From positions 1 through 51,869 of the IMG/VR virus record IMGVR_UViG_3300044961_000057: DNA of 51,869 nt; one strand, given 5' to 3'. The notes below the pieces were generated by a model. It did no database searches and was not told where the DNA came from. It saw nothing but the letters and a program-made list of their open reading frames with translations. The translations under genes and the position numbers were made by a program. Of this stretch, positions 11,339 to 35,368 are shown one piece after another. The stretch's first letter is position 1. Every line of letters begins with the position of its first letter. The stretch is from a virus.

Positions 11339-11430
11339 AAAGCGAGGGTTTTTGCGCTGACCGAATCGGCTTGCCCTCGGGCGTAGCGGGGCGTTCCGAT
11401 CATGTTCTTTGCCCGATATTTTCGGGGCGC

Positions 11431-12086: not shown

Positions 12087-12112
12087 TTTGTTCTTCCTCT
12101 TTCGCGTTCGAA

Positions 12113-12133
12113 ACGACCGAGAAATTCGGTCGT
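12113..12133. terminator. Stem-loop in the early operon
   Basis: A perfect 8-bp stem ACGACCGA/TCGGTCGT with a 5-nt loop (GAAAT) lies between the small gene ending at 12138 and the gene starting at 12086. On the minus transcript only TTTCG follows, so it is probably a partial terminator or attenuator. On the plus strand GTTTTC follows. Confidence 0.45.
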
Positions 12134-12137
12134 GTTT

Positions 12138-14580: not shown

Positions 14581-14668
14581 TGTCGACGGAAGGGATTCGA
14601 ACCCTTCAAGCTCTCTCGAGCAACCGAGGGTGCGACCCTCGTGCGGTTTCCAGTTACGCCACGTCGAC
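14581..14668 (-). tRNA. Class II tRNA with anticodon CGC (unusual)
   Basis: An 88-nt cloverleaf: acceptor GTCGACG/CGTCGAC, D-stem GCG/CGC with A14, GG and A21-type bases in the loop, anticodon stem CGAGG/CCTCG with loop GTCGCAC (anticodon CGC, Ala GCG codons), long variable arm with stem GCTC/GAGC, and T-arm GAAGGG-TTCGAAT-CCCTTC. The long variable arm and discriminator A are Leu/Tyr-type features; G3:U70 for alanine is absent (C3:G70). Acceptor plus T-stem is 13 bp, not 12, and G32-C38 can pair. CCA is not encoded. Aminoacylation identity is uncertain. Confidence 0.75.
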
Positions 14669-14673
14669 GAAAA

Positions 14674-14698
14674 CCGCGCGGGCTCGCGACCCGCGCGG
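14674..14698 (-). terminator. Strong GC hairpin directly 5' of the class II tRNA
   Basis: A perfect 9-bp stem CCGCGCGGG/CCCGCGCGG with a 7-nt loop, followed on the minus transcript by GTTTTC that runs into the tRNA 5' end. It has intrinsic-terminator form and would end the transcript from the gene at 14704-14973. Alternatively it serves as a processing or pausing element ahead of the tRNA. Confidence 0.65.
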
Positions 14699-14703
14699 GT
14701 GCT

Positions 14704-14973
14704 TCACCGCGAAATGTAGCCTTCGGCCTCGAGCATGTCGAAGAGCGACATTCGCTCGAGCCGAGCGTTCGCACGCTTCGCGGCCTTCTCGGCGTGCTCG
14801 CGCATTTCGCGCTCGAGACGAACGCGCCCGTCTTCGCTCACGTTCGCCTGACCTCGGATCGTGAACGTGTACCACGGGGCGGGCTCATGAAACCGAGACG
14901 AGACCGGCGCGCCGTTGAGCCGAGCCCGCTTGCGCTTTTGGTAGCGCGTCGTGATCTTCGCGGCCTCGCTCAC
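14704..14973 (-). CDS. Small basic hypothetical protein
   Basis: An 89-aa protein. A basic N-terminus (ITTRYQKRKRARLNGAPVSS) precedes a strand (PWYTFTIRGQANV) and a long charged helix (RLEREMREHAEKAAKRANAR). GTG 14973 forms GTGA with the 43-aa gene upstream. No family is recognised. The terminator-like hairpin that follows makes it the last gene before the tRNA. Confidence 0.6.
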   Translation of the reverse strand: MSEAAKITTRYQKRKRARLNGAPVSSRFHEPAPWYTFTIRGQANVSEDGRVRLEREMREHAEKAAKRANARLERMSLFDMLEAEGYISR

Positions 14974-17829: not shown

Positions 17830-20449
17830 GAGCTTCTTTCCTCTCGCTGATTACCGAGTTCTCGGTGTGAAGTTTCGTGCGAATCGCGCCAACGTCGCCG
17901 ATCTGAAGTCGCTCAACCCAATTCAGGATCAAGCCCGCGTCGATTCGGTGGAACGTGATCGACTTGCCTTGAACGATTGCCGATGCGCCCTCGTGCGAGA
18001 GCGAGCGCAACGCGCGGCCGAGTTGCGCGGCCGTCGGCACTTTGACCGAAGGCACGTAGCGCAACCAATGCGATTCTTTCGCGAGCGCTTCGGTGTTGAC
18101 CCACACTTCGCCCGAGCCGAACATGACAAGCGGTGTCGGGATCGGCGCAACGTCGGCCAGGTAGCGAGCGAGCCATTCGCACACGAGCGACGCCATACCC
18201 GCGCCCGTTGCGAGGTGTCGATGAAACTCGCTGGCGTTGCCTTCGACGAGAAAACGCGCGCCCTCGTTGACCGTGCGATTCGCTCGCAACCAAAGCGAGT
18301 GTTCGGCGATCATGTCGTGCTCGATCCAGCGAGTGATCGTCGGCGGCCCGCCGATGCTCTCGAGGTATTCCTTCGGCCGGTTGTCGGATCGCAAGTAATA
18401 GATGCGGCTCGCGATCGCCTCGAGGTCATTCGCCGAAAGCTCTTCGCCCGTGTCGAGAAGCCGATCGTTATTGCCCGCGATGATCACGCGCACGGCACCC
18501 TCGAGCGGTGCGGTCGGGAGAAACTTTCGATTCAGGGTGCGTTTCGTCGACCCGATGAAACGACGAAGCTCGGCCGTGATTCCCTTGCGCGTAGGAAGCG
18601 CTTCGTCGGCCAGCACGAGCGGACACGCGATCAACGACTCGTTGAATCCGTCGAGAACGCGCGCAAGCTCACTCGGCCCGCCCGTTGTCCAAAGGCGAGC
18701 GAGACCCGACGCGAGAAGCGTTTTCCCGATTCCGCCCGGCCCGTCGAGATACACGGCGCACGACTGACGATCGAGACGAGAAGCGGTCGCGACCCAATCG
18801 AGCAACCGCAACGAGGGATCGAGCAAGCGAAGCCACATGTCGACTTGCTCGTGAAAGCGCGGCTCGAGTCGGCGGATTGGTGTCGTCGCCTCGAAGAACG
18901 TTTGCGAGGTCGGCTCGTAGTAGCTTCGTTGCAGCGAGAGCGACGCTTCTACCTGACGCGCAACGGTCGAATAGTCGTGAAGGATCGCGCGCACCTCACG
19001 CATTCGCGTATTGCCCCGCTGATCGGTCGCGAAGAGCGAAACGGGAGCGCGGGCCAGGTCACGCACGATCGAATGCTCGAGGTTCGAGCGCGGGATCGGC
19101 GGGAGGTAGCGACCCTCAACGAAAATGTAGAACGAATCAGCCCGCGCGATGATCCATCGGCGTTGGAAGTCGAGAACGTCGACGCACCGTTGAGCCCGAG
19201 CCCATTCGGCAAGCTCGCTCTCTTCGTAGGGCCCGATCACCGTCGGCGCGGCCGAGGTCTCGAGCGATTCCGAACTTCCTGGCGCGTCGCCCGTCGGCGT
19301 GTTCGAGGTCGCGACCCGATCGGGAATGTGACCCGAGCGAGCGGCCTCGGCGCGAAGTCGACCGAAGATTTCCTCATTTGTTGCGGCTCGCGCGGCGTCG
19401 TGAGCGATCCGACGCTCGAGCGCGCGATCGAGCTTCTTTCGGGCCTCTTCGTGCCAATCTTCGAGTTCGCCCGAGGGAAGGATCTTGCGCTCGAATCGAC
19501 CGACGCTCTCGGCCAGGATCGCGAGAAGTACACCCGTCGGGATCGTCGGCGGAACCGCGAAGCGTGCGGCCGCACACAAGCGGTTCAAGGTGTCGTCGCG
19601 CGAACCCTCTTCGGCGAGTTGCTCACCCTTGAGAGCGCGCTTGATCAGGTCGGCGTTTCGCCCGCCCGCGCTCGAGAGCAGCTTGCGAACGTGCTCGAGA
19701 TCGACGGGTTGATCGTGCGCGGCGTGCGCGGCGGCTCGAGCTTCGGCGATCTTCGAGTCGGCGATCTCGCTCGCCCGCGCGGTGATCAGCAAGGCGCGCG
19801 ATTCGGTCAAGATCTCGTCGACGTTGAGCGGCGCGGTTCCGTCAGTCGTCGCGGCGAACGTCAACGCGTCGGGCGGCGCGGCCGGGAGGTAATAGAGGCG
19901 CGCGGGATCTTTGGTGCTCGGGTCGTTGTAGAAGCCGAACCGCTTTTCGACACCCGCTCGAAACGGCACGTTCTCGGCCGGGAGCAACGGGCGCGAGAGT
20001 TTGAACGCGATTCGACACTTCGGGCGTTCGGGGTTGTAGCGGTAGCTTGAATGCACAACGGCGGCGACGCCTGACGATTCGATCGACTCGAGCACGCGGC
20101 CGAAGGTCTCGGGATCGATCGGCTCTTTGGGCGCTCTCTCGTCGAGATCGAACACGCCAACGGTCACACGTTCGACGTTCACCGCGAGACGCTTCGAGCC
20201 TGGCTTGAACTCGGCCGGAACCCACGCGGGCCCGCTCTTGCCCGAATCCGTTGAGCCCGTGCCTTTGCACGCATCACACCCGGTGCCCGCGCCTTCACAC
20301 CTCGGGCACGGGAGCGACGGGCGGCGATCGTGGTGAAGCAAAAGCGCGGTGAGGTCTTCCCACGGGAGCGCGATCGGCTTCGGCTGATTATCGCGCTCGT
20401 GATCGAAGAGCGCGAGCGTAATTTGATCGGTCATGGGCGGGCGGCTCAC
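17822..20449 (-). CDS. Primase-helicase (AEP-like primase, D5/VirE-like ATPase)
   Basis: An 875-aa replication protein. Residues 48-64 hold a DnaJ-like zinc motif (CPRC...CDACKGTG). Residues ~90-160 look like an archaeo-eukaryotic primase core: VGVFDLDE (D101, D103), VVHSSYRY (H133) and KCRIAFKLSRPL. Residues ~560-700 are a superfamily 3/VirE-type ATPase: GPGGIGKT (~570), PLVLADEAL and IIAGNN (sensor, ~656). It should prime and unwind DNA for the family A polymerase. GTG 20449 forms GTGA with the gene upstream; ATG 20434 is an alternative. Confidence 0.82.
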   Translation of the reverse strand: MSRPPMTDQITLALFDHERDNQPKPIALPWEDLTALLLHHDRRPSLPCPRCEGAGTGCDACKGTGSTDSGKSGPAWVPAEFKPGSKRLAVNVERVTVGVFDLDERAPKEPIDPETFGRVLESIESSGVAAVVHSSYRYNPERPKCRIAFKLSRPLLPAENVPFRAGVEKRFGFYNDPSTKDPARLYYLPAAPPDALTFAATTDGTAPLNVDEILTESRALLITARASEIADSKIAEARAAAHAAHDQPVDLEHVRKLLSSAGGRNADLIKRALKGEQLAEEGSRDDTLNRLCAAARFAVPPTIPTGVLLAILAESVGRFERKILPSGELEDWHEEARKKLDRALERRIAHDAARAATNEEIFGRLRAEAARSGHIPDRVATSNTPTGDAPGSSESLETSAAPTVIGPYEESELAEWARAQRCVDVLDFQRRWIIARADSFYIFVEGRYLPPIPRSNLEHSIVRDLARAPVSLFATDQRGNTRMREVRAILHDYSTVARQVEASLSLQRSYYEPTSQTFFEATTPIRRLEPRFHEQVDMWLRLLDPSLRLLDWVATASRLDRQSCAVYLDGPGGIGKTLLASGLARLWTTGGPSELARVLDGFNESLIACPLVLADEALPTRKGITAELRRFIGSTKRTLNRKFLPTAPLEGAVRVIIAGNNDRLLDTGEELSANDLEAIASRIYYLRSDNRPKEYLESIGGPPTITRWIEHDMIAEHSLWLRANRTVNEGARFLVEGNASEFHRHLATGAGMASLVCEWLARYLADVAPIPTPLVMFGSGEVWVNTEALAKESHWLRYVPSVKVPTAAQLGRALRSLSHEGASAIVQGKSITFHRIDAGLILNWVERLQIGDVGAIRTKLHTENSVISERKEAHE

Positions 20450-20754
20450 TTCGACGAGCGACGAGCCTCACGCTTCGAGCGCACGGCGTCAAGGGTCGTC
20501 TTGACGTGCGCTTCGACGATCGAGCGAACGAACTCGCTCGCGCTCTTCTTCGCCTTGCGGGCCTCGAGGAACACGGCCGCCTTGCCGTCGCGAGAGAGAG
20601 TGAAGTTCACGGTCGCGCCTTCACCGGGCTTCGAGATCGAGCGGCTCTTTCCGAGCCGACCTCGGCGATCTTGCATGTAGTGACGAGAGCACATGCCTTT
20701 TGCTCGCGCCCCCTCGTTACAGCCCGCGACCTCACACTTCGTTTCGGTGCTCAT
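20446..20754 (-). CDS. Zinc-knuckle plus RHH-like small DNA-binding protein
   Basis: A 102-aa protein. Residues 7-25 form a Cys/His knuckle (CEVAGCNEG...MCSRHY). Residues ~48-85 resemble a ribbon-helix-helix: a strand NFTLSRDG, then two helices (KAAVFLEARKAKK, ASEFVRSIVEAHVK). The tail is basic. It may be a regulator or primase partner, being GTGA-coupled to the primase gene. AAAGG precedes ATG 20754, and a TTGACA promoter lies just upstream. Confidence 0.65.
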   Translation of the reverse strand: MSTETKCEVAGCNEGARAKGMCSRHYMQDRRGRLGKSRSISKPGEGATVNFTLSRDGKAAVFLEARKAKKSASEFVRSIVEAHVKTTLDAVRSKREARRSSK

Positions 20755-20761
20755 GGTGCCT

Positions 20762-20791
20762 TTGCTACTACTCTTCGGGTGAGAGTGTCAA
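20762..20791 (-). promoter_or_regulatory. Minus-strand promoter before the primase genes
   Basis: TTGACA (complement of 20786-20791) is followed by CTCTCACCCG, the same 16-base stretch as in the accessory-gene promoter at 25212-25227. The -10 region is poor (TAGTAG at 15 bp). Unlike the accessory promoters it leaves a short leader with AAAGG before ATG 20754. It would reinforce transcription of the primase and downstream genes. Confidence 0.5.
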
Positions 20792-21211
20792 CTAGAGAAC
20801 TTCGGCCAGGTCTCGAACGTGCCAGTCGCCGAGTTCGATCCACCCGGCGATCTCGCTCACGCGACGCTCGAACGCGTGATCGTGAAGGTCGTTCTTTCGT
20901 TCGACCCATTCGACGACGTGCGCGCATTCGTGCGCCAGGGTGAGCCAGGTCGCGCACGGGTCAAGCTCGAGGCGACCGAAGCGCAACGACCCGCGCGTTT
21001 GCAGGTCGGCAATCGAAGTGTGGAGCTTGTCACACGAGCGATTGCGCTTGATCGAGGTCACGAGCGGGCGGCCGATCAACGATCGACCGATCGCGTTCAA
21101 CCGCTCGAGGTGACGCACGAAAGCCCACGCGCCACGAAGCGAGACCGGGTGACACGCGAGTTCGGGCCAGCGCTCGAGTTCTCGCGCGTACACCTTGAAC
21201 GCGTAGCGCAT
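20792..21211 (-). CDS. Zincin-like metallopeptidase fold, SprT-like
   Basis: A 139-aa protein with the zinc-binding signature LAHECAHVVEW (H94, E95, H98) and a downstream His (H110 or H112 in LHDHAFERR) as probable third ligand. The HExxH plus nearby H layout recalls SprT/WLM-type minimal metallopeptidases, some of which act on DNA-bound proteins. In the replication operon such a role is possible, but the substrate is unknown. ATG 21211 follows the P-loop gene by 2 nt. Confidence 0.65.
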   Translation of the reverse strand: MRYAFKVYARELERWPELACHPVSLRGAWAFVRHLERLNAIGRSLIGRPLVTSIKRNRSCDKLHTSIADLQTRGSLRFGRLELDPCATWLTLAHECAHVVEWVERKNDLHDHAFERRVSEIAGWIELGDWHVRDLAEVL

Positions 21212-23507: not shown

Positions 23508-23537
23508 AATATCATCACTTCTTTCTATATGTCAAGA
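23508..23537 (-). promoter_or_regulatory. Leftward early promoter
   Basis: On the minus strand TTGACA (23537-23532) is followed after 18 bp by GATATT (23513-23508), in the most AT-rich stretch of the genome. It would drive the long early operon starting with the wHTH gene at 23435. The leader of about 65 nt contains the operator-like repeats. Confidence 0.7.
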
Positions 23538-23648: not shown

Positions 23649-24140
23649 ATGTCTTCGCCAGATCAGCGCATCATTCGAGACCCGCGCACGGGTCAGATTC
23701 AGAAGGGCTCGAGGCTCAACCCGAGCGGGCGCAACGGGTCGCGCTCGCCCATGTGGAACATGCTCGATCAAATGCTCGGCGAGAACGCGATCGAGTGCTA
23801 CGTGTTCGCGGCGAACGTCATGCGAGGTCAGGTCAGCGCACCCGCTCGAAAGCCCGCGCCCGGTGAGGATTCCTCGAGCGCGGCCTTGATCCCGCTGATC
23901 GGGCCCACCATTCGCGAGAGACTCGACGCGGCTCTTTGGTTGGCCGAGCAACGCAACGGGCGCGCGCCCTCGAGCACGAGCGTTGAACTCACCGCAAACG
24001 TGAACATGCCGCTCGCCCGCCTGGATCCCTCGAGGCTCACCGACGCCGAGCTTGAGCAATTCGAAACCCTCGCCTTGAAAGCGGTCACGCATGACGCCGA
24101 GGGTGAGATCGTCGACGCCGAGATCGTGAGCCCGAAATGA
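23649..24140 (+). CDS. Probable terminase small subunit (DUF5681-like N-terminus)
   Basis: A 163-aa protein. The N-terminus has RTGQIQKGSRLNPSGRNGSR, like the 'GN.kGRP' motif of DUF5681-type proteins that often precede phage terminases. A helical middle (SPMWNMLDQMLGENAIECYV, IRERLDAALWLAEQRNGRAP) and an acidic tail follow. It is the first rightward gene, upstream of TerL though separated from it by a leftward accessory island. Assignment as TerS is by position and weak motif. Confidence 0.6.
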   Translation: MSSPDQRIIRDPRTGQIQKGSRLNPSGRNGSRSPMWNMLDQMLGENAIECYVFAANVMRGQVSAPARKPAPGEDSSSAALIPLIGPTIRERLDAALWLAEQRNGRAPSSTSVELTANVNMPLARLDPSRLTDAELEQFETLALKAVTHDAEGEIVDAEIVSPK

Positions 24141-24214
24141 TCGCGCTCTCGGTCGCGTTCTTCATGGCGCTCGTGATCCTCGGTTACGACGACGACCCGC
24201 CCTCGCCCGCCTGA
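24137..24214 (+). CDS. 25-aa membrane micro-protein
   Basis: ATG 24137 overlaps the TerS-like stop as ATGA. The 25-codon product starts MIALSVAFFMALVILG, a single hydrophobic segment, and ends in an acidic tail (YDDDPPSPA). Its end overlaps the minus-strand zinc-finger gene. Coupling and hydrophobicity support it, but it is too short to be certain. Confidence 0.4.
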   Translation: MIALSVAFFMALVILGYDDDPPSPA

Positions 24215-24372
24215 ACCCAACGAGCGAGCGTCGACCCACACTCGCAATTTCGAAACTCGAGCTTTTGATCGTGAAGTTCGTCGGTCGGGTCGTCGACGCG
24301 ATCACCGTGCCCGATTAGCTCGAGGTCGCCCCATTCGGCCGACCTCGAGCAACAAGAGCAATCGACCTTCAC
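24184..24372 (-). CDS. Small Cys-rich accessory protein
   Basis: A 62-aa acidic protein with CSCC near the N-terminus and CECG later (NCECGSTLARW), probably one zinc site. GTG 24372 forms GTGA with the upstream gene, so both belong to the same accessory unit driven by the promoter at 24816-24843. It is encoded against the direction of the late genes. Function unknown. Confidence 0.6.
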   Translation of the reverse strand: MKVDCSCCSRSAEWGDLELIGHGDRVDDPTDELHDQKLEFRNCECGSTLARWVQAGEGGSSS

Positions 24373-24809
24373 GCGTAGAACCGAGCCAGGATCCGCAAGA
24401 AAGCCGCGTGAACGGCCGTTTCATCGTGCCAGGATTCACGCACGGTAACCATGCGCCCGCCACCGAGCGCGGCCGAATCCCATTCGCGCACCTTGCGGCC
24501 GGTGAACACGACCTTCACAAGATCGCTGTAGACGTGCCACCCGAGCCGAAAGGTCGTTTCGTAAGGGTGAACGTAACGCTCGCCCGATTCGGTCTCGTAG
24601 ATCTCAAGATTGCTCTCATGCTTAGGGTTCGCGTTCGGCCAAAGAGCCGAGAACTCGATCGCGATCGCCTTCCACAAACGGCGCATTCCCTCGAGGTCGC
24701 CTTTCTTCGAGAGCGCGGGAAGCAAGCGATAGAGAACCTCGGTCATGGGCGAAGCGGGGTTCACGTCGATCAAGCGGCGGGCGAAAACCTTGTCGGTCGT
24801 GTCGGTCAT
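24369..24809 (-). CDS. Accessory hypothetical protein (leaderless)
   Basis: A 146-aa protein with helical N-terminal half (PMTEVLYRLLPALSKKGDLE) and a mixed region (FRLGWHVYSDLVKVVFTGRK). ATG 24809 lies 6 nt after the -10 box TATCTT of a repeated promoter, with no ribosome site, so it should be translated from a leaderless message. No family is recognised. Confidence 0.65.
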   Translation of the reverse strand: MTDTTDKVFARRLIDVNPASPMTEVLYRLLPALSKKGDLEGMRRLWKAIAIEFSALWPNANPKHESNLEIYETESGERYVHPYETTFRLGWHVYSDLVKVVFTGRKVREWDSAALGGGRMVTVRESWHDETAVHAAFLRILARFYA

Positions 24810-24815
24810 GAGAGA

Positions 24816-24843
24816 AAGATAACAGAACGCTTCGAGTTGTCAA
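24816..24843 (-). promoter_or_regulatory. Accessory promoter copy A
   Basis: TTGACA (24843-24838), 16 bp, TATCTT (24821-24816), 6 nt, ATG 24809. The sequence between the boxes is the same as copies E and nearly that of C, D and F. Transcription should start at or beside the A of ATG. Confidence 0.8.
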
Positions 24844-24857
24844 CACGAAATCGAAGA

Positions 24858-24881
24858 GCCCGGTCGATTTCTCGATCGGGC
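24858..24881 (-). terminator. Terminator between accessory units (B to A)
   Basis: A 10-bp stem with one G-U pair (GCCCGGTCGA/TCGATCGGGC) lies just after the stop at 24897. The minus transcript continues UCUUCGAUUUCG. The same stem core recurs at 34388-34417 and 34689-34716. Confidence 0.75.
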
Positions 24882-24896
24882 CCTGATTTCGCTCGC

Positions 24897-25193
24897 TTAG
24901 AGCTTCGTGTAAAGGCCGGTGAGATCCTCGAACACGCGGCGCAACGAATCCGCGTAGACCTGGCTCACGGGCTCACCGTAGGCGCACATATTGAGCCCGC
25001 GCCCGCGATAGGCTTGCACGGTGTAAGTATCGTCGGCCTCGAGGGTGATCACGATGCACGACGCACGCGAGATCGTCGGGAGCTTCATTTGCAGCCCGCG
25101 CCCGGTATCGAGCAAGCCCTTCGCGCCCGTCATGGTGAGGAATCGGTTACCGCCGAGTTGCTCGAGAATCGTCGTCGCGATCGCGTTGGTCAT
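24897..25193 (-). CDS. Accessory hypothetical protein
   Basis: A 98-aa protein containing LGGNRFLTMTGAKGLLDTGR and LQMKLPTISRASCIVITLEA. This 'GGNRF..MTGAK' pattern is widespread in small phage proteins of unknown role. ATG 25193 is 6 nt downstream of the -10 box TATTAT, so the mRNA is probably leaderless. It forms a single-gene unit. Confidence 0.7.
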   Translation of the reverse strand: MTNAIATTILEQLGGNRFLTMTGAKGLLDTGRGLQMKLPTISRASCIVITLEADDTYTVQAYRGRGLNMCAYGEPVSQVYADSLRRVFEDLTGLYTKL

Positions 25194-25199
25194 GAGGGA

Positions 25200-25227
25200 A
25201 TAATAACGGGTCGGGTGAGAGTGTCAA
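25200..25227 (-). promoter_or_regulatory. Accessory promoter copy B
   Basis: TTGACA (25227-25222), 16 bp, TATTAT (25205-25200), 6 nt, ATG 25193. The box spacing is the same as the other copies, but the spacer differs and matches the promoter before the primase genes (CTCTCACCCG). Confidence 0.8.
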
Positions 25228-25235
25228 CAAGAAAA

Positions 25236-25269
25236 GAGCGGGCCCGGTCGATTTCTTCCGAGCCCGCTC
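25236..25269 (-). terminator. Terminator between accessory units (C to B)
   Basis: An 8-bp stem GAGCGGGC/GCCCGCTC followed on the minus transcript by TTTTCTTG. One arm retains GGGCCCGGTCGATTTCTT shared with the other accessory terminators; the other arm has changed to keep pairing. Confidence 0.75.
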
Positions 25270-25275
25270 GAGCGG

Positions 25276-25506
25276 TCAGGTCTCTTCGTAGCGCACGACT
25301 CCAGGGGCCTCGAACATGGGCCCGTTGAGCCCGGTCACGAAAGGCGCGCCGTCGATCTCGGGCTTGATCGGGAGCCGAACCGCGCGCTTCACCTTGCCCG
25401 TGAAGAACCAACCACGAACCGCGCACGCGGGCTCGAGGTTCTCGAACTTCACGCGGATCGTGCCCGCGCTCTTCGTGACGATCACCGCTTCGGTTGCCGT
25501 GCTCAT
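25276..25506 (-). CDS. Accessory hypothetical protein
   Basis: A 76-aa beta-rich protein (TEAVIVTKSAGTIRVKFENL, FFTGKVKRAVRLP). It is the second gene of unit C and, unlike first genes, has a good ribosome site (GAAAGGAAC before ATG 25506). Function unknown. Confidence 0.65.
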   Translation of the reverse strand: MSTATEAVIVTKSAGTIRVKFENLEPACAVRGWFFTGKVKRAVRLPIKPEIDGAPFVTGLNGPMFEAPGVVRYEET

Positions 25507-25525
25507 TTTGTTCGTTCCTTTCAGG

Positions 25526-25705
25526 TCACTTGTTGCGAAGGGTCTCGTAGATCTCGCCCGCCAACTTCTCGAACGCGCCCGCGCCGAGCACTCGATCGAA
25601 CGATTCTCGAGTCGAGAGCCCGGCCGCCTTGTGCGCCAGGATCGCGGCGGAAATGAGAGCGTTCTTTTCAGCGGTCTTCGTGTCGGTCGCGGCGTTTGCG
25701 TTCAT
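25526..25705 (-). CDS. 59-aa accessory protein, first gene of unit C
   Basis: A 59-aa helical protein (NALISAAILAHKAAGLSTRE, then a helix ending IYETLRNK). The pattern 'AAILAHKAAG.S.REAFD.VLG' recurs in small proteins of unknown role in other phages. ATG 25705 is 6 nt after the -10 box of promoter C, and a ribosome site for the next gene follows its stop. Confidence 0.65.
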   Translation of the reverse strand: MNANAATDTKTAEKNALISAAILAHKAAGLSTRESFDRVLGAGAFEKLAGEIYETLRNK

Positions 25706-25711
25706 GAGAGA

Positions 25712-25739
25712 AAGATAACAGAACGATTCAAGGTGTCAA
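25712..25739 (-). promoter_or_regulatory. Accessory promoter copy C
   Basis: TTGACA (25739-25734), 16 bp, TATCTT (25717-25712), 6 nt, ATG 25705. No terminator arm lies beyond it because the neighbour on that side is the rightward TerL gene. Confidence 0.8.
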
Positions 25740-25780
25740 CACCTAATCGAACGAAAATCGACCGACGCGGCGCGTTGCGG

Positions 25781-25786
25781 TAGGGT
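25781..25786 (+). promoter_or_regulatory. TANNNT box before TerL
   Basis: TAGGGT followed by 7 nt and ATG 25794. A poor -35 match (TCGACC) lies 17 bp upstream. The spacing is that of a leaderless promoter and there is no good ribosome site, although GGTAGGG overlaps the box. Confidence 0.45.
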
Positions 25787-25793
25787 CGCGCGT

Positions 25794-27293
25794 ATGCCCC
25801 CGGTTTCCCTGGATCAAGTTGATCTCTTGCGGCTCTCGAGCGAGCGCATGAGGCGATCGTTTGCGCTTTTCGTTCGGCGCGCCTGGCAATACGTCGATCC
25901 CGCGCCGATCGTGTGGAATTGGCACCTAGACGCGTTGTGTACGTGCCTTCAAGCGGTGAGCGACGGGCGCATTCGAGAGTTGCTGATCAACATTCCGCCC
26001 GGTCACGCGAAGAGCTTGATCGTGTCGGTGCTTTGGCCCGCGTGGGTTTGGACCCGCGACCCTCGTTGGTCTTCGATCTTCGGCTCGTATGAACTCGGGC
26101 TCGTGACGCGTGACGCGGTGAGAACGCGCACGCTCGTTGAAAGTGAATGGTACATTCGACACTTTCGCTCGAGCGAAGAGGGCGCGGTTACCTGGGAGTT
26201 CGCCGACGATCAGAACTTGAAAAAGTTCTACAAGAACACGCTCGGCGGCGCGCGCACCGGAACAAGCGTCGGCTCGGGTACGGGCTACCGCGCGAACGCT
26301 CTCGTCGTAGACGACCCGATCTCGGCCGACGACTCATACTCGGAAGTTGAACGCGTGAAGGCGAACCGTTGGTTTTTCGAAACCATGTCTTCGCGCTTCA
26401 ACGATCAGGCGACCGCGATCCGCGTCGTGATCATGCAACGGTTGCATGAAGAGGATCTCTCGGGCGAGATCCTTCGGCGCGGCGGCTTTCAACACTTGAA
26501 CCTTCCGAGCGAGTTCAACCCGCTCGAGCGCTCGATCGTGCGCGCGCATGACGGCTCGGTGATCTGGCAAGACCCGCGCACGCAAGCGGGCGAACTTCTC
26601 TTTCCCGCGAAGTTCTCTCGAGCGGTTCTCGCGCAAGCGCGAAAAGACCTCGGCCCTTACGGGTACGCGGCACAACACGATCAGAAACCGACGCCCGCCG
26701 AGGGCGGCTTGCTGAAACGCGCTTGGTTCACCCGTCGCTATTTGCGGCCCGGTGAGGTCGCGCGCGAAGGGTTCGAATGCGTCACGCTCCCGACACGCTT
26801 CGACATGATCGCGATCGTGACCGACGCCGCGTTCAAGAAAACGGAAACGAGCGATCGTGTCGCGATCGGTGTCGTCGGTCGCAAGGGGCCGAAGCTCTAT
26901 TTGCTCGCGATGCGTTGGGATCGCATGAGCTTCACCGAGACCCTTCAAGCGATCCGCGATTTGCGCGCGGTCTGGAAACCGATCGAGATCGCGATCGAAG
27001 ACAAGGCGAACGGCTCGGCGATTATCGAACTCTTGAAGCAAGAGCTACCGGGCGTGATTCCGATCGAGCCCGACGGCGGGAAAGAAGCGCGCATCATGGC
27101 GGCGACCTCGAGCCTCGAGGCGGGCGATCTCTATCTCCCGCTTTCTGAACCGTGGGTCGACCCGTTGATCGAAGAGGCGGCCGCATTCCCTCGAGGTCGA
27201 CACGACGACGGGATCGATATGCTCGCCTACGCGATCAACCGCTACCTCACGCGCTCGAACCTGGCGCGCCTCGAAGCGCTTGCGTCAGGCTAA
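25794..27293 (+). CDS. terL: Terminase large subunit
   Basis: A 499-aa packaging motor. The ATPase half has Walker A PPGHAKS (68-74) after LLINI, and Walker B ALVVDDP (D173, D174). The nuclease half has IVTDAAFK (D344), IAIEDKANG (E402, D403) and RHDDGIDML (D471, D472, D475), the acidic residues of the RNase H-like headful or cos nuclease. Length is normal. It drives DNA into proheads through the portal, encoded next at 27552. The start has a TANNNT box 7 nt upstream and no clear ribosome site. Confidence 0.95.
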   Translation: MPPVSLDQVDLLRLSSERMRRSFALFVRRAWQYVDPAPIVWNWHLDALCTCLQAVSDGRIRELLINIPPGHAKSLIVSVLWPAWVWTRDPRWSSIFGSYELGLVTRDAVRTRTLVESEWYIRHFRSSEEGAVTWEFADDQNLKKFYKNTLGGARTGTSVGSGTGYRANALVVDDPISADDSYSEVERVKANRWFFETMSSRFNDQATAIRVVIMQRLHEEDLSGEILRRGGFQHLNLPSEFNPLERSIVRAHDGSVIWQDPRTQAGELLFPAKFSRAVLAQARKDLGPYGYAAQHDQKPTPAEGGLLKRAWFTRRYLRPGEVAREGFECVTLPTRFDMIAIVTDAAFKKTETSDRVAIGVVGRKGPKLYLLAMRWDRMSFTETLQAIRDLRAVWKPIEIAIEDKANGSAIIELLKQELPGVIPIEPDGGKEARIMAATSSLEAGDLYLPLSEPWVDPLIEEAAAFPRGRHDDGIDMLAYAINRYLTRSNLARLEALASG

Positions 27294-27431: not shown

Positions 27432-27494
27432 AAATCGCGAGGGCATGGCATGGTTGGGCGCAAGCCTCGAGTGCCGCGTGTTCTACCGAGCGCG

Positions 27495-27520
27495 CCCGCT
27501 TCGGTGGGTTTCCTCTTTTT
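27495..27520 (+). terminator. Terminator upstream of portal gene
   Basis: CCCGC-TTCG-GTGGG, a 5-bp stem closed by a UUCG tetraloop, followed by TTTCCTCTTTTT. It would stop transcripts from terL, and the portal gene then has its own TANNNT box. Confidence 0.65.
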
Positions 27521-27551
27521 CGCTCGCGTGCGTGCGTGGTAGCTTCGGCTC

Positions 27552-29354
27552 ATGGCTCGCAAGTCAAGCAAAAACGATCGTGCTCGAGGCGATTCGCTCG
27601 CACGTCAAGACGGGTGGAACAACGTTCTCACGGCGTTGGGCTCGAAGACTCGTGACAAGCGCGAGTCACACATTCCCGTTCCCGAGCCGCTCTCGTATGC
27701 CGACGCGCTCTCGATCTATCGAGCGAGCGACACGGCCGCCCGAATCGTCGACGTGCCCGCCGAGGAAATGTTGCGGCAAGGGTTCGAGATCAAGATTCCC
27801 GAGGGCCACGAAGAGAGCGAAGCGATCGTTTCTGCTCTCGACGATCTCGAGGTCGATTCGAAGTTGCTCGATCTCGCGAAGAAGACCCGCGCGTTCGGCG
27901 GCGCGGTTGCGCTCATGGGCGCACAAGACGGCGCAACGGATCTCTCGAAGCCGCTCAACGAGAACGCCATTCGCTCGATCGATTTTCTCACGGTCTTCGA
28001 TCCTTCCGAGGTCTCGGTTCTCGAGTTCGTCGGCGCGCCTGGCGATCGGAATTATGGCGAGCCCGCCATGTATTCGATCCACCCGAAGGTGTTGAGCGTC
28101 GCGCCGAAAGCGCTCGGGCTCGAGCGCGTTCACGCTTCGCGTGTTCTTCACTTCCGAGGCCCGTCGATCTCGCGCTTGCAAGAGCAGGCGAACCGAGGGT
28201 TCGGTGACTCGGTGTTCGATCTCGTGTGGAAGGTCGTTCGCAACTTCGACACGGCGCACGAGAACGCGCACGCGCTCGTTGAAGACTTCGCGCAAGCGGT
28301 CTTCAAGATCAAAGGTCTCGCCGAAGCGATCGCGGGTGATCGCGCCGACGTGGTGAAGAAGCGCCTCGAGATCATGGATCTCTCGCGCTCGGTCTTGCGC
28401 GGGATCGCTCTCGACGGTGAGAGCGAAGATTTCGAGCGCAAGCCGACGCCGATCAGCGGTCTTGCCGATCTTCTCGATCGCTTCGCGCAACGTCTCGCGG
28501 CCGCAACGCGAATCCCGGTGACCGTGCTCATGGGCCAAAGCCCGGCCGGGTTGAACGCCACGGGCGCGAGCGACATTCGCATTTTCTACGACTTCATTGC
28601 GAGCCAGCAAAACGCGATCTTGAAAAAGCCGCTCGAGCGTTTCGTTCGCTTGCTCATGCTCTCGAAGAAGGGCCCGACGAAGGGAATCGAGGCCGATAAT
28701 TGGTGCGTCGAATTCCGGCCGTTGTGGCAACCGAGCGAGCAAGAGCAAGCCCAAACGCGTCAGACGATCGCGCAAGCCGATCAGGTCTACCTGACGAACG
28801 GTGTCGTCTCGGCCGACGAGGTGCGAAAGGCGCGGTTCGGCGGCGACAAGTTCTCGGTCGACACCTCGATCGACGACGACAACGAGACCGAGAACGAAGC
28901 GAGCGACCTCGCCGACGAAGAGGGTGTGACTCGCGAGGTCGACGCCGAGGGCAACCCGATCCAAGTCAAGCCCGGTGAGACCGCGCCCGAGGGCTCGAGC
29001 GGCGCACCCGGCGCGCCTGCGATGGGCGGCGCACCCGGCGCACCCTCGAGCGGCGGCGCGCCCAAGGTGCAAGATCAGGCGATGAATGGTGCGCAAGTCA
29101 CCTCGTTGATCGAGGTCGTGCGCGCGTACCACGCCGAAGAGATCCCGCGTGAGAGCGCGCTTGCGATCGTTCGGATCGCGTTCCGCCTGACCGATCAAGA
29201 GGCGAGCGACCTGATCGGGCCCGAGAACTTTCAGCCGAAGGAACCGCCCGCGCCCGTGATCGCGCCTGGGATCGGCGGCAAGCCCGGCGCGCCCGAGCAA
29301 CCGAAGCAACCCTCAACCCCGCGACCCGCGCCACCGAGCGCGAAGGAAACCTGA
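27552..29354 (+). CDS. Portal protein, DUF1073 type
   Basis: A 600-aa protein. The core (~45-420) carries the DUF1073 portal pattern: SIYRASDTAARIVDVPAEEM, GGAVALMGAQDG, ASRVLHFRGPSI, GFGDSVFDLVWKVVRNFDTA, and ATRIPVTVLMGQSPAGLNATG. The portal forms the dodecameric ring for DNA entry and the head-tail joint. Residues ~440-520 are acidic and then Gly/Ala/Pro-rich, and a helical segment (VRAYHAEEIPRESALAIVRI) precedes a disordered Pro-rich tail. TAGCTT lies 6 nt before ATG 27552. Confidence 0.9.
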   Translation: MARKSSKNDRARGDSLARQDGWNNVLTALGSKTRDKRESHIPVPEPLSYADALSIYRASDTAARIVDVPAEEMLRQGFEIKIPEGHEESEAIVSALDDLEVDSKLLDLAKKTRAFGGAVALMGAQDGATDLSKPLNENAIRSIDFLTVFDPSEVSVLEFVGAPGDRNYGEPAMYSIHPKVLSVAPKALGLERVHASRVLHFRGPSISRLQEQANRGFGDSVFDLVWKVVRNFDTAHENAHALVEDFAQAVFKIKGLAEAIAGDRADVVKKRLEIMDLSRSVLRGIALDGESEDFERKPTPISGLADLLDRFAQRLAAATRIPVTVLMGQSPAGLNATGASDIRIFYDFIASQQNAILKKPLERFVRLLMLSKKGPTKGIEADNWCVEFRPLWQPSEQEQAQTRQTIAQADQVYLTNGVVSADEVRKARFGGDKFSVDTSIDDDNETENEASDLADEEGVTREVDAEGNPIQVKPGETAPEGSSGAPGAPAMGGAPGAPSSGGAPKVQDQAMNGAQVTSLIEVVRAYHAEEIPRESALAIVRIAFRLTDQEASDLIGPENFQPKEPPAPVIAPGIGGKPGAPEQPKQPSTPRPAPPSAKET

Positions 29355-31321: not shown

Positions 31322-32539
31322 TTGGGTATCCCGTTTCGCAATCCGAACGCGGGTCGACTCACCCGGCGCTTTGTTGCGCGCTCGGGCGTCGATCTGCTTA
31401 CGGGTCGTGTCGACGGTGGATCAGCACAAGCGGCCGAGAACGTTTTTCGTGACGGTATTTTCGGAACGGTCGCGAGCAACGTAACCGTTTCGCCGAATGG
31501 TCTCGCGATCGCGGTGACGCTCGGTGCGCCTGGCGTGTCAGCGACCGCGACCGTTTCACCGAACGGGCTTGCGATCCCGATCGCCTTCGGTTCGCCGACG
31601 GTGCAACCGGGCTCGGTGAACGTCTCGCCGAACGGTCTCGCAATCGCGGTGACGCTCGGCGCGCCCTCGGTGCAACCGGGTTCGGTGAACGTCTCGCCGA
31701 ATGGTCTCGCGATCCCGGTGAGCTTCGGTTCGCCTTCGGTCACGCAACCGATCGTGATCTCGCCGAACGGGCTTGCGATCCCGCTCGCGTTCGGCGCGCC
31801 CTCGGTGCAACCGGGCTCGGTGAGCATCGCACCGAACGGCGTTGCGATCGCGGTGACGCTCGGCGCGCCCTCGGTGCAACCGGGCTCGGTGAACGTCTCG
31901 CCGAACGGTGTTGCGATCCCGCTCGCGTTCGGCGCGCCCTCGGTGCAACCGGGCTCGGTGAACATCGCGCCGAACGGCGTGCTCATTCCGCGCACGCTCG
32001 GCACGCCAACGATCACGGCGACCGCTTCGATCTCACCGAACGGCGTTGCGATCTCGGTGAGCTTCGGTTCGCCGACGGTGCAACCGGGCTCGGTGAGCAT
32101 CGCGCCGAACGGCGTTGCGATCCCGGTGAGCTTCGGTTCGCCGACGGTTGGCAACAACACGATCGCGCCGAGCAACGTCAGTGTGAACGGGCTCGCTATT
32201 CCGTTCAACTTCGGCCGCCCGTCGATCACGCCCGGCTCGGTGAACGTCTCGCCGAATGGGCTTTCGATCTCGGTCGCGTTCGGGTCACCCTCGGTCACCT
32301 CGATCGCTACGGTCTCGCCGAGCGGGTTCAAGATCCCGGTCACGTTCGGCGCGCCTGCTCTCGTCTACAACCAAAACGTTTCACCGAACGGCGTCTTGAT
32401 TCCTCTCACGTTCGGGTTGCTCGTGATCGCTGATCGCTCGAATGAGCGGGTCGTGTATCGTGGCCCGCCGTTGCGGTTTCCGTCAGGCTCGAGCCGAGGT
32501 GCGCTCGGGTTCACTCCTAAGCGGGGCAAATGGACATGA
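31322..32539 (+). CDS. Repeat protein with 14 beta repeats, probable virion surface protein
   Basis: A 405-aa protein. After a ~50-aa basic N-terminus come 14 repeats of about 22-23 residues with consensus xVSPNGLAIPVxFGxPSV, covering ~residues 57-375. Short Pro-Gly links (VQPGS) join them. A basic, folded C-terminus ends GALGFTPKRGKWT. The regular strands suggest a beta-solenoid or string of small beta units, suited to a fibre or head decoration. TTG 31322 is the start, with GAGGG 7 nt upstream. Neighbouring repeats are almost identical in DNA, so repeat number can change by recombination. Confidence 0.7.
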   Translation: MGIPFRNPNAGRLTRRFVARSGVDLLTGRVDGGSAQAAENVFRDGIFGTVASNVTVSPNGLAIAVTLGAPGVSATATVSPNGLAIPIAFGSPTVQPGSVNVSPNGLAIAVTLGAPSVQPGSVNVSPNGLAIPVSFGSPSVTQPIVISPNGLAIPLAFGAPSVQPGSVSIAPNGVAIAVTLGAPSVQPGSVNVSPNGVAIPLAFGAPSVQPGSVNIAPNGVLIPRTLGTPTITATASISPNGVAISVSFGSPTVQPGSVSIAPNGVAIPVSFGSPTVGNNTIAPSNVSVNGLAIPFNFGRPSITPGSVNVSPNGLSISVAFGSPSVTSIATVSPSGFKIPVTFGAPALVYNQNVSPNGVLIPLTFGLLVIADRSNERVVYRGPPLRFPSGSSRGALGFTPKRGKWT

Positions 32540-33372
32540 TGAATCGGGGCGCATTCAAGGCACTCGTGCAAGCGGGCGGCGCACAACGCGCGCGCGTAGC
32601 GCTTCCGAAAATGGCGCTTCCGACGGCGCAAGCTCGGCGCTACTCGCGCGCGTTGCGCGGGAAACTTCTCGCCGACGCTCTCGCGCTCGTGCGCGCGAAG
32701 CTCGTGCCGAAGCTCGAGGCTCTCGCCGAGAACACCTCGAAGATCGCAACGAGCGTTCGCACCGACGCCGACGAGATCGGGAACACTCTCGACGAGATTC
32801 AAACCGAGTTTCTTTCGAAATGGTCGCGTCGACGAATGACCTCGCTCGTGCGCCCGGTCGCCGAAGAGATCGAGCGCTTTCACGCGACGCAACTCAACCG
32901 CTCGTTGCGCGCGGCCGTCGGTGTTGACGTGGTTGGGTCTGAACCCTGGCTCGAGAAATCGATCGACGAGTTCACGGCCGAGAACGTCGGCTTGATCAAG
33001 TCGATCCCGACGCGGTTCTTCGACGACCTCGAGACGAACTTGAAGCGTGAACTCGCCGACGGTGCCCGCTGGGAAGAACTCGCGGGAATCGTAGAAGAGC
33101 GCTACGGCGTCGCTCAATCACGCGCGGAATTGATCGCGCGCGATCAGGCGGGAAAGTTCTTCGGCGATCTCAACCGAGTTCGTCAGGGCGACCTCGGGAT
33201 CGAGCGCTTCACATGGCGCACGATGCACGACAACCGAGTTCGTGAAGAGCACGAGGCGCGAGACGGCGAAGCGTTCGCTTGGAACGATCCGCCCGACGGT
33301 GAGACACCGGGCGAGCCCGTGTTGTGCCGCTGCTACGCCGAGCCCGACCTTGCGGGCTTGCTCGAAGACTAG
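32530..33372 (+). CDS. Head morphogenesis protein (SPP1 gp7 / Mu F-like)
   Basis: A 280-aa protein. The C-terminal third shows the family pattern: RAELIARDQAGKFFGDLNRV, FTWRTMHDNRVREEHEARDG, AFAWNDPPDGETPG and CRCYAEPD. The N-terminal part is helical. These proteins enter the prohead with the portal and help assembly. The gene overlaps the repeat-protein stop; ATG 32536 forms ATGA with that stop and is an equally good start. Its end overlaps the minus-strand accessory island by 3 nt. Confidence 0.85.
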   Translation: MDMMNRGAFKALVQAGGAQRARVALPKMALPTAQARRYSRALRGKLLADALALVRAKLVPKLEALAENTSKIATSVRTDADEIGNTLDEIQTEFLSKWSRRRMTSLVRPVAEEIERFHATQLNRSLRAAVGVDVVGSEPWLEKSIDEFTAENVGLIKSIPTRFFDDLETNLKRELADGARWEELAGIVEERYGVAQSRAELIARDQAGKFFGDLNRVRQGDLGIERFTWRTMHDNRVREEHEARDGEAFAWNDPPDGETPGEPVLCRCYAEPDLAGLLED

Positions 33373-33644
33373 TCTCGACGAAAGAACACGAGCGCGAACG
33401 CGTGAGAGAGGATCGGCGCGGGCGGGTTCTTCGGGTCGGCCGAAAGCCGATCGACCTCATACCCGAGCGCGATCCGAAGCTCACGCGTCGCGTTGTCGAG
33501 AGCGGCTTGTTCGTGCGGCTCGAGCTTGAAGTGTGCGCGGATCTTCTCGCACGCCTGGGAAATCGCCTGAAACGCGAAGACCTTCTCACGCGCCCGATCT
33601 GAGAGAACCTCGAGCGCTTCTCGGTACGTGAACGGGAGCTTCAT
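33369..33644 (-). CDS. Accessory hypothetical protein
   Basis: A 91-aa helical protein (PFTYREALEVLSDRAREKVF, LEPHEQAALDNATRELRIAL). It is the third gene of unit D and is 4-nt coupled to the gene upstream (ATG 33644). Its stop overlaps the stop of the head morphogenesis gene on the other strand. Function unknown. Confidence 0.6.
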   Translation of the reverse strand: MKLPFTYREALEVLSDRAREKVFAFQAISQACEKIRAHFKLEPHEQAALDNATRELRIALGYEVDRLSADPKNPPAPILSHAFALVFFRRD

Positions 33645-33889
33645 TCGATCGCCTTCCTGATTGCGTTGATTGCCGCGTGAGGATCTTCGAAACCGTAGAA
33701 CTCGGCGCGCGCCGTTCCCTTGCGAGCAACGATCACGTAAGGCCCGCTCATGCCCTGGCGCGGCTCGCTCGAAAGCTCGAGCTTCGGCCCGCGCTTTCCC
33801 GACCAATCCCGCTCGCTCAACACGTGGATCACCGCGTCGGTACGTCGACGCCAGCGACCGAACACGAACACTTCGTCATGCTCGCTCAT
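33641..33889 (-). CDS. Accessory hypothetical protein
   Basis: An 82-aa basic protein with mixed strands (EVFVFGRWRRRTDAVIHVLS, PYVIVARKGTARAEFYGFED). ATG 33889 overlaps the previous gene by 4 nt. Second gene of unit D. No family is recognised. Confidence 0.6.
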   Translation of the reverse strand: MSEHDEVFVFGRWRRRTDAVIHVLSERDWSGKRGPKLELSSEPRQGMSGPYVIVARKGTARAEFYGFEDPHAAINAIRKAIE

Positions 33890-34341
33890 GCGCGCACCTT
33901 GACCCATTCGACAACCGCGTTCAAGTCGGCCGACTCGATCCGATCCCATTTGTTCGGCCCGACCTTGTGCGCGGCATGGAATCCGCCGAAACCGTTGAGG
34001 CCGATCTTGAACGCGGCGGCCGCATTCTCGGGCGACGACTTGCGAAGGTTCGTGATCGCTTCGACCGACGCCTGATATTCGCGCTCGTAGAGACCGCGAT
34101 CGAAAGCGCGCGCACACGCGATCTGCTCTTCGTGTGCCCGCTCGGTCTCGCGACGAATCTTCGCGGCGTTGAACTTCTCACCCGTGCGACCGCTCAACGC
34201 GCGGGCGGCGCACACACACCCGAAATAGACGATCTCGCCGTCGACCTCGAGGGCGGCCGTCGACTTGAGCCCGGTCTTGCCGCACAAGTCGCACGCCGAA
34301 ACTTCGTCAGTCCAACCGAGAAACGTGATCGCGTTGTTCAT
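33886..34341 (-). CDS. Zinc-binding accessory protein (leaderless)
   Basis: A 151-aa protein. CDLCG near residue 17 and FGCVCAARAL near residue 41 form a Cys-based zinc site, followed by long helices (RRETERAHEEQIACARAFDR). This layout occurs in small phage and plasmid proteins of unknown role. ATG 34341 is 6 nt after a TATCTT box with no ribosome site, so it is a leaderless candidate. Confidence 0.7.
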   Translation of the reverse strand: MNNAITFLGWTDEVSACDLCGKTGLKSTAALEVDGEIVYFGCVCAARALSGRTGEKFNAAKIRRETERAHEEQIACARAFDRGLYEREYQASVEAITNLRKSSPENAAAAFKIGLNGFGGFHAAHKVGPNKWDRIESADLNAVVEWVKVRA

Positions 34342-34347: not shown

Positions 34348-34375
34348 AAGATAACAGAATGATTCGAGGTGTCAA
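34348..34375 (-). promoter_or_regulatory. Accessory promoter copy D
   Basis: TTGACA (34375-34370), 16 bp, TATCTT (34353-34348), 6 nt, ATG 34341. The downstream GAGAGAAAGATAACAGAA tract is shared with copies A, C, E and F apart from single changes. Confidence 0.8.
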
Positions 34376-34387: not shown

Positions 34388-34417
34388 AGGGCCCGGTCGA
34401 TTTCTTGATCGGGCCCT
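34388..34417 (-). terminator. Terminator between accessory units (E to D)
   Basis: A 12-bp stem with two G-U pairs around AGGGCCCGGTCGA, 5-nt loop. It lies 13 nt from the stop of unit E and 12 nt before the -35 box of promoter D. Confidence 0.75.
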
Positions 34418-34429: not shown

Positions 34430-34642
34430 TTACGCGCCGATCCCGGCGTCTCGCAAGTCACCTCGAGTGACCCAAATCAGCGAACCGCAAATGTCGGCTT
34501 GCGCCCGACAATTCACTTCGCCGATCGAGACGATCGTGAAGCGGTGACCCGCGCGGAAGAAACAACCGATCGGCGAGGTGTAGTCGCGCGCGATCGTGAA
34601 GGTGGAACCGACAACGAGAGAGGAAGTGTTGTTGTTGTTCAT
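34430..34642 (-). CDS. Small accessory protein (leaderless)
   Basis: A 70-aa beta-rich protein (SLVVGSTFTIARDYTSPIGC, HRFTIVSIGEVNCRAQADIC) with three cysteines. ATG 34642 is 6 nt after the TATCTT of promoter E. Single-gene unit. Function unknown. Confidence 0.65.
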   Translation of the reverse strand: MNNNNTSSLVVGSTFTIARDYTSPIGCFFRAGHRFTIVSIGEVNCRAQADICGSLIWVTRGDLRDAGIGA

Positions 34643-34648: not shown

Positions 34649-34676
34649 AAGATAACAGAACGCTTCGAGTTGTCAA
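34649..34676 (-). promoter_or_regulatory. Accessory promoter copy E
   Basis: TTGACA (34676-34671), 16 bp, TATCTT (34654-34649), 6 nt, ATG 34642. Identical to copy A through the boxes and spacer. Confidence 0.8.
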
Positions 34677-34688: not shown

Positions 34689-34716
34689 AGGGCCCGGTCG
34701 ATTTCGATCGGGCCCT
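34689..34716 (-). terminator. Terminator between accessory units (F to E)
   Basis: A 12-bp stem AGGGCCCGGTCG/CGATCGGGCCCT with a 4-nt loop between the stop at 34729 and promoter E. Downstream on the minus transcript is TTTCGATTTCG. Confidence 0.78.
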
Positions 34717-34728: not shown

Positions 34729-35031
34729 TTAGGCCCAACGAGTGAGCTTCAAACGGTCACCAACGACGATCACCGCGAACCCCGTTGCGAGCGCGAACCG
34801 ATTGCGGTTGCGGTTGAAACCGCCCGACACGCACGACCAATTGAAGAGGTGATTACCGCCACCCGACGCGACGAACATGCGCCCGTCATTGCCGACGGGA
34901 ACGCTCGCGCGGGTCACCTCTTCGTTGAGGCACGCGGGATCGTACCCGTTGAGGTCGACTCGGCCGAGCAAGCCGAGCCGCTCGAGTTCGTTGCGAAGCG
35001 TCGTGATCTCTTCAGTCTTGAGAAAGTTCAT
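34729..35031 (-). CDS. Accessory hypothetical protein
   Basis: A 100-aa protein: an N-terminal helix (TEEITTLRNELERLGLLGRV) then a glycine-rich beta part (FVASGGGNHLFNWSCVSGGF, ATGFAVIVVGDRLKL). Second gene of unit F, with GAAAGG upstream of ATG 35031. Function unknown. Confidence 0.65.
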   Translation of the reverse strand: MNFLKTEEITTLRNELERLGLLGRVDLNGYDPACLNEEVTRASVPVGNDGRMFVASGGGNHLFNWSCVSGGFNRNRNRFALATGFAVIVVGDRLKLTRWA

Positions 35032-35049: not shown

Positions 35050-35241
35050 TCAGCCGAGGGTGTAGTGAGCGACTTGTTGATCGTGCGGAAGAGAGTTGAG
35101 GTGCGCGGCAAGCTCGAGCGCTTGCGCGTGCGTGAGGTCGGTTTTGAAGAAGCGGCCGCCAACGACCGCGAAGGTGTGATCCGGGCCCGACGAGATTTTC
35201 GAAAGACCGTTGAGAGCAGCGGTGAAGAGCGCGTTGTTCAT
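35050..35241 (-). CDS. Small accessory protein (leaderless)
   Basis: A 63-aa protein (ALFTAALNGLSKISSGPDHT, then a helix ALELAAHLNSLP). It is the first gene of unit F; ATG 35241 is 6 nt after TATCTT. No family is recognised. Confidence 0.65.
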   Translation of the reverse strand: MNNALFTAALNGLSKISSGPDHTFAVVGGRFFKTDLTHAQALELAAHLNSLPHDQQVAHYTLG

Positions 35242-35247: not shown

Positions 35248-35275
35248 AAGATAACAGAACGCTTCGAGATGTCAA
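35248..35275 (-). promoter_or_regulatory. Accessory promoter copy F
   Basis: TTGACA (35275-35270), 16 bp, TATCTT (35253-35248), 6 nt, ATG 35241. Beyond it, only one arm of the accessory terminator (AGGGCCCGGTCGATTTCTCG, ~35288-35307) remains; the pairing arm is missing. Confidence 0.8.
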
Positions 35276-35368
35276 CACGAAATCGAAAGGGCCCGGTCGA
35301 TTTCTCGGTTTACCGTTAGGTTTCGCACACTTGCGCGCGCGGTCGAAAAGCTCGATCCTTCGATCATC

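Follow-up and report, generated by a model that had tools for sequence, protein, structure and literature searches.

Repeated promoter and start-codon cassettes, apparently leaderless, with small accessory genes in two islands of a phage

Described promoter cassettes and the islands of the window

The closest described counterparts of the elements reported here are the PeSLs, promoter-early stem-loop cassettes of T4-type phages (Arbiol 2010 and Comeau 2014, as summarised in PMC4503421), in which a composite of promoter and stem-loop lies between small accessory genes and at which genes are shuffled between related phages. Other systems share some of these features. The lambdoid morons are additional genes, each equipped with a promoter and terminator of its own, that are lodged between conserved genes (PMC1524935). 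The 41-nt repeats of PAK_P1-like Pseudomonas phages have the form TTGACA-N17-TAgAAT with conserved surroundings and occur five to six times per genome in a variable region (PMC4309531). In the cluster K mycobacteriophages, a repeated start-associated sequence (SAS/ESAS) is found together with a promoter before small genes, and one leaderless gene has been predicted near these elements (PMC11373665). Finally, mycobacterial leaderless genes have a promoter placed for a start at the ATG and lack an SD sequence (PMC4633059).

The window, by which we mean the entire stretch of phage DNA analysed, is a record of 51,869 bases that looks complete because its two ends overlap by 143 nt with 99% identity. 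Among the best matches of its TerL, Aeromonas phage 56 and other phages with small genomes, none exceeds 41%. Two islands of minus-strand genes run opposite to the plus-strand late genes (Table 1). Island 1 consists of three units in the gap between the TerS-like and TerL genes, which measures 1654 nt in the window versus roughly 200 nt in the related phages L009 and L010. Island 2 (33.4-35.3 kb) consists of three further units between the plus-strand genes 32530-33372 and 35369-36559. The initial annotation had described the units of island 1 as TTGACA, a 16-nt spacer, TATCTT or TATTAT, six nucleotides and ATG, and all three are found exactly so. When the whole window is searched for this exact pattern (TTGACA-N16-TATCTT/TATTAT-N6-ATG), all six units of the two islands are recovered on the minus strand and the structure is absent from the plus strand; 150 dinucleotide shuffles yield none. 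A looser promoter scan, allowing up to two mismatches, gives 12 matches versus 3.4 expected, and a repeat search of the whole window groups the six units into one family with a 79-nt unit. The promoter at 25227 has a spacer of a different class from the other five, and the spacers of those at 24843 and 34676 are identical.

Read in the minus direction, a typical junction between two units runs from a stop codon through a hairpin rich in GC (AGGGCCCGATC..GACCGGGCCCT) and a T-containing tail to TTGACA, the 16-nt spacer, TATCTT, TCTCTC and ATGAACAACG. Behind each lead gene come zero to two further genes, started by an SD sequence (GAAAGG) or by a stop-start overlap. The four inter-unit stretches (54-65 nt) fold at -25 to -30 kcal/mol, and the U-richness of the hairpin tails is only moderate. 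The proposal that related stem-loops end the units holds at these four junctions and fails after the last unit of either island, where a related hairpin is absent. A full hairpin is likewise absent upstream of the first unit in both islands; in the first unit of island 2 (35275), only the 3' half of the motif is left upstream, at 35276-35305. One strong promoter occurs six times in near-identical form, usually coupled to a terminator and with different small genes behind each copy, and the arrangement looks like a built-in plug for accessory genes.

Table 1. Features of the two islands and their flanks in the window
Feature	Position	Strand	Remarks
TerS-like gene	23649..24140	+	flanks island 1; named from position and homologues
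TerL	25794..27293	+	flanks island 1; -10-like box 7 nt before ATG
Promoter, island 1 unit 1 (TTGACA-N16-TATCTT)	25712..25739	-	predicted start ATG 25705; no SD
59-aa lead gene, island 1 unit 1	25526..25705	-	L039 and L008 homologues in early region behind leaderless-type promoters
76-aa second gene, island 1 unit 1	25276..25506	-	SD (GAAAGGA); 88% identical L039 homologue with own leaderless-type cassette
Inter-unit hairpin/terminator	25236..25269	-	T-rich tail; between island 1 units 1 and 2
Promoter, island 1 unit 2 (TTGACA-N16-TATTAT)	25200..25227	-	ATG 25193; class B spacer, as in L039 internal units
98-aa lead gene, island 1 unit 2	24897..25193	-	phrog_9437; widespread in unrelated phages
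Inter-unit hairpin (AGGGCCCGATC..GACCGGGCTCT)	24855..24884	-	island 1
Promoter, island 1 unit 3	24816..24843	-	ATG 24809; exact match
146-aa lead gene, island 1 unit 3	24369..24809	-	without family match
62-aa GTG-start ORF, island 1 unit 3	24184..24372	-	GTGA overlap; coupled second gene; not called by gene caller, coding uncertain
Promoter, island 2 unit 1	35248..35275	-	ATG 35241; exact match
63-aa lead gene, island 2 unit 1	35050..35241	-	
100-aa second gene, island 2 unit 1	34729..35031	-	SD-led (GAAAGG)
Inter-unit hairpin	34689..34716	-	island 2
Promoter, island 2 unit 2	34649..34676	-	ATG 34642; exact match
70-aa lead gene, island 2 unit 2	34430..34642	-	start ATGAACAACAACAACAC, CA-rich
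Inter-unit hairpin	34388..34417	-	island 2
Promoter, island 2 unit 3	34348..34375	-	ATG 34341; exact match
151-aa lead gene, island 2 unit 3	33886..34341	-	N-terminus 72% identical to same-site L010 gene
82-aa overlapping second gene, island 2 unit 3	33641..33889	-	
91-aa overlapping third gene, island 2 unit 3	33369..33644	-	homologue is second gene of L039 island 2 unit

Elsewhere on the minus strand, an HNH-endonuclease-like gene (20446-20800) has in front of it TTGACACTCTCACCCGA, 17 nt that also occur in the class B promoter of island 1 unit 2; here AAAGG and a short leader follow. A 48-aa ORF (12138-12330) behind TTGACG-N17-TATTAC, 7 nt and ATG, without an SD sequence, could be a seventh leaderless-type start. 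The promoter of the leftward early region (23508-23535, TTGACATATAGAAAGAAGTGATGATATT) has a long leader and is conserved in the sister phage L039 with TTTACA. The window also specifies a protein of many roughly 23-residue tandem repeats (31322-32539, plus strand; 66-69 nt period), a tRNA-Gln(ttg) confirmed by Rfam (11267-11339, minus strand) and a tRNA-Ala(cgc) called by ARAGORN without Rfam confirmation (14581-14668, minus strand).

The initial comparison with the PeSLs is sound as far as the working of the elements goes: promoter and stem-loop are combined between small accessory genes at four inter-unit junctions, and genes have been shuffled between the window and its relatives L039 and L008. 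However, the phage is not T4-type (a 52-kb record with overlapping ends and TerL matches of at most 41%), and the T4 early consensus is absent, with TTGACA in six of six promoters versus the T4 early -35 element GTTTAC (consensus from PMC1524935). In contrast to the PeSLs as summarised in the account cited, the promoter here ends at the start codon, in an apparently leaderless arrangement, the units run against the late genes and are gathered in two islands, and the cores differ between sister phages. The PAK_P1-like repeats resemble the islands in that a sigma-70 promoter block recurs within a variable region, but differ in sequence and phage group; terminator coupling and a leaderless start are not reported for them, whereas here the core changes between sisters and the cargo is swapped. 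The 13-bp SAS extends a ribosome-binding site, whereas here the SD sequence is absent and the promoter abuts the ATG. Unlike in the mycobacterial leaderless genes, the leaderless-type junction is here part of a repeated phage cassette.

Promoter cores within and between sister phages

Relatives were found via TerL and a conserved structural protein, the TerL identity to the window being 82% in L038/L039 (one species), 81% in L008 (an 8.4-kb fragment), 63% in L009 and 59% in L010. The same design recurs in six units of L039, spread over island 1, island 2 and the early region, and their promoters fall into two classes. Class A, with the CTTAGGGGTGAACTGATT spacer, occupies the lead position at all three sites with 97-100% identity, and class B (ACCCACCCGAACCGA) serves the internal units. 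Two units are present in L008, one of them between TerS and TerL and the other in the early region. In L009 and L010, the TerS-TerL gap is short and contains no island. None of the TTGACA promoters in the L009 early region abuts an ATG, those with a clear gene behind them having a leader and an SD sequence; the L009 TerL is also preceded by an SD sequence, and the L010 operon at the island 2 site is without a repeated promoter. The distant TerL relatives (L011-L037, L043-L048 and L116-L118) show no such units except for isolated chance-like matches. The design is carried by only three phage species, one of them the 8.4-kb fragment, so event counts are small. An Anaeromyxobacter MAG, tried as a route to the host, led to TerL relatives of 49-50% in two genomes of the phylum thus reached, which are too distant to name a host.

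The 28-bp promoter core, which the initial annotation had proposed to look for in related phages, is not common to them, and the copies are alike within each phage. Across all viral contigs, the exact core has one extra match only, in L007, which we reject as chance since the contig is unrelated and is AT-rich where the match falls; a looser core pattern retrieves the L039 species only. Outside the -35 element, promoters are 80% identical within phages versus 63% between the window and L039 (permutation p=0.0026), and the lead promoters at corresponding sites of these two phages are only 63-67% alike, despite conserved upstream flanks. Hence, since the split of the lineages, the cores appear to have been homogenised within each genome or exchanged jointly for new ones.

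A different account of this pattern is that the units have ordinary early promoters, whose spacer is read by a phage regulator or a modified RNA polymerase that co-evolves with them, making recombination between units unnecessary. The three lead promoters of L039 fit it well, because their identical block spans only about -37 to +4 and the flanks are unrelated, as a binding site would give. Two spacer classes stand side by side in both the window and L039, small HTH-like proteins below the Pfam cut-offs are encoded at 4482-4910 and 6345-6575, and repressor-bound repeats, the stoperators, are among the elements described for mycobacteriophages in PMC9283540. However, the likeness among the window units extends to the arms and loops of the hairpins, which a promoter-binding protein need not read, and the swaps of cargo described below would be left unexplained. 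We give such a regulator a fairly low but appreciable probability, chiefly because the identical block of L039 is confined to the promoter.

The start of the lead genes

In all 14 units of the three related phages, the -10 box lies 6-8 nt from the ATG: in the window units, the A of the ATG is the seventh position after the -10 hexamer, whereas the -10-like box stands 6-7 nt before the ATG in the six units of L039, which have no SD sequence adjoining the start codon, and 7-8 nt before it in the two units of L008, whose lead genes likewise lack an SD sequence. Transcription usually starts seven positions past the -10 element. The first purine past this element is the A of the ATG in six of six window units, the intervening bases all being pyrimidines, and the sequence before the lead ATG, TCTCTC or TTCGTC, is without an SD sequence. 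The mean anti-SD pairing energy is -1.4 kcal/mol for the six lead genes versus -6.2 kcal/mol for the 69 other window genes as delimited by rough in-house gene calls (p=5e-5). The L039 lead gene at 15511 scores -5.6, though its start region is that of the sibling units. CA and AC steps are frequent in codons 2-6 of the lead genes (4.8 versus 1.8 per gene, p=6e-4); CA repeats near the start reportedly enhance leaderless translation (PMC9031893), though they were not needed for it in mycobacterial work (PMC4633059).

The sequence evidence thus bears out the leaderless start that had been proposed for island 1: with the -10 box at 6-8 nt in 14 units, and because the lead genes lack the SD sequence that most other genes have, transcription most likely starts at the lead-gene ATG and gives a leaderless mRNA. 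It could instead start slightly to either side, leaving a short leader of about 1-5 nt or beginning a few bases downstream, such that the mRNAs would be near-leaderless or weakly leadered and rely on the pyrimidine-rich TCTCTC. The spread of the -10-to-ATG spacing from 6 to 8 nt across phages is compatible with this, as the choice of start site can move by 1-2 bases. The position of the first purine in all six window units, and the fact that no SD sequence would be available from any such position, make it improbable.

Boxes of the TANNNT type also stand 6-7 nt before the ATG of the TerL and portal genes on the plus strand of the window (25730-25800 and 27480-27560), and similar boxes precede their orthologues in L008 and L039. 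This suggests leaderless late transcripts; leaderless-type starts are thus a wider trait of the phage group and extend beyond the islands. Such widespread leaderless initiation, late genes included, has apparently not been described in this lineage in the literature as far as we searched.

Cargo exchange and its implications

With units separated by slashes, island 1 reads 59-aa, 76-aa / 98-aa / 146-aa, 62-aa in the window and 98-aa / 67-aa / 76-aa / 70-aa in L039 (98 and 76 being the window lengths of the homologues), and a single 105-aa gene in L008. The 76-aa gene is led by an SD sequence in the window (MSTATEAV...) and starts inside a cassette in L039 (MTNANPTATAAV...), with a different N-terminus; downstream of it, both phages have a similar terminator and a class B promoter, and the next gene differs. 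The 98-aa gene stands behind a class B promoter in the window and a class A promoter in L039; the first 19 residues of its product are identical in the two and the remainder has diverged. The 59-aa family occupies the early region in L039 and L008 and leads island 1 in the window, where it is absent from the early site. For just one island 2 gene of the window, the last, was a homologue detected in the L039 unit. This sister phage, with the same design and reshuffled cargo and promoter classes, supports the initial proposal of a modular system for acquiring small genes.

At the island 2 site of L010, the minus-strand gene 12106-12399 resembles the 151-aa cargo of the window in its N-terminus and, weakly, the 70-aa cargo in its later part, and is apparently a fusion of parts of the two. 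Island 2 of L039 contains a gene that by eye is cytosine-C5 methyltransferase-like (13980-14850, minus strand) and is absent from the window island. Pfam and PADLOC gave nothing worth reporting on the function of the cargo, and, apart from the 98-aa protein, none of it has an informative match to a family. For that protein, a two-sequence AlphaFold model (pLDDT 75) matched no PDB fold significantly.

Relatives of the 98-aa protein (phrog_9437) occur in phages of Agrobacterium, Rhodobacter, Pseudomonas, Enterobacter and Tenacibaculum, among others. Viral contigs hold 285 confirmed stretches of this family, and the best 80 of these 285 include 65 with an assignable start. Among these 65 loci, only two L039-type contigs have a promoter at the ATG, and 69% have an anti-SD score of -4.5 or better. 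The 59-aa family is likewise SD-led in three unrelated contigs. Hence, the leaderless start would appear to travel with the cassette and not with the gene. The ATGACCAAC start of the 98-aa gene is also present in a homologue from a Rhodobacter phage, and the gene itself may therefore account for part of the shared start.

These comparisons also bear on whether the units could be morons of the lambdoid type, that is, independent insertions of foreign genes, each with its own promoter and terminator. Small genes with a promoter and often a terminator, inverted to the late genes and lying at what are gaps of roughly 200 nt in L009 and L010, are what such insertions would produce, and one cargo gene is widespread among unrelated phages. 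However, the cargo does not stand out in GC content (58-65% versus a phage average of 62%), and the promoters are near-identical to one another, several units sharing one cassette sequence, rather than foreign. The same genes carry SD leaders in many other phages, and no integrase was found among the phage proteins scanned, nor were other signs of lysogeny. Independent insertion is thus still less probable than a short leader. Chance resemblance with a recent tandem duplication and no functional system, to which the identical spacers at 24843 and 34676 might point, is contradicted by the comparative data, the architecture being retained over 14 units and with different spacers in the sister phage, and is very improbable.

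We therefore favor, with a probability of roughly 0.7, the reading of the units as leaderless promoter-start cassettes for small accessory genes, joined via terminators, read by a host sigma-70-type polymerase and swapped by recombination. The host RNA polymerase would recognise the perfect TTGACA and the often TG-extended -10 element and start transcription seven bases past the latter, on the first base of the ATG. The lead gene would then be translated from a leaderless mRNA with no ribosome-binding site, and the later genes via an SD sequence or stop-start overlap. The GC-rich hairpin between units would terminate one transcript just ahead of the next promoter. Expression is probably early, opposite in direction to the late genes. 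The units hardly differ in the terminator, the promoter or the opening bases of the reading frame, which makes homologous recombination possible; such recombination could swap the cargo and copy the promoter from unit to unit, which would explain why the cores are alike within a phage and different between sisters. More tentatively, the leaderless promoter-ATG junction might serve as a universal gene adaptor, at which any frame joined to the ATG would be expressed at once because no ribosome-binding site is needed, with concerted evolution keeping the adaptors recombinable as a new core replaces all copies in each lineage.

How phages gain small accessory genes, such as those for anti-defence or host takeover, and express them immediately is poorly understood. 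The elements that appear new here are the leaderless junction and the replacement of the core within a genome together with reshuffled cargo. The sister genomes catch swaps of cassettes, in which a cargo gene with an SD sequence in one phage has the leaderless form in its sister. They thereby make it testable whether promoter-start junctions act as adaptors for recombination, and they provide a sequence by which islands of accessory genes can be searched for.
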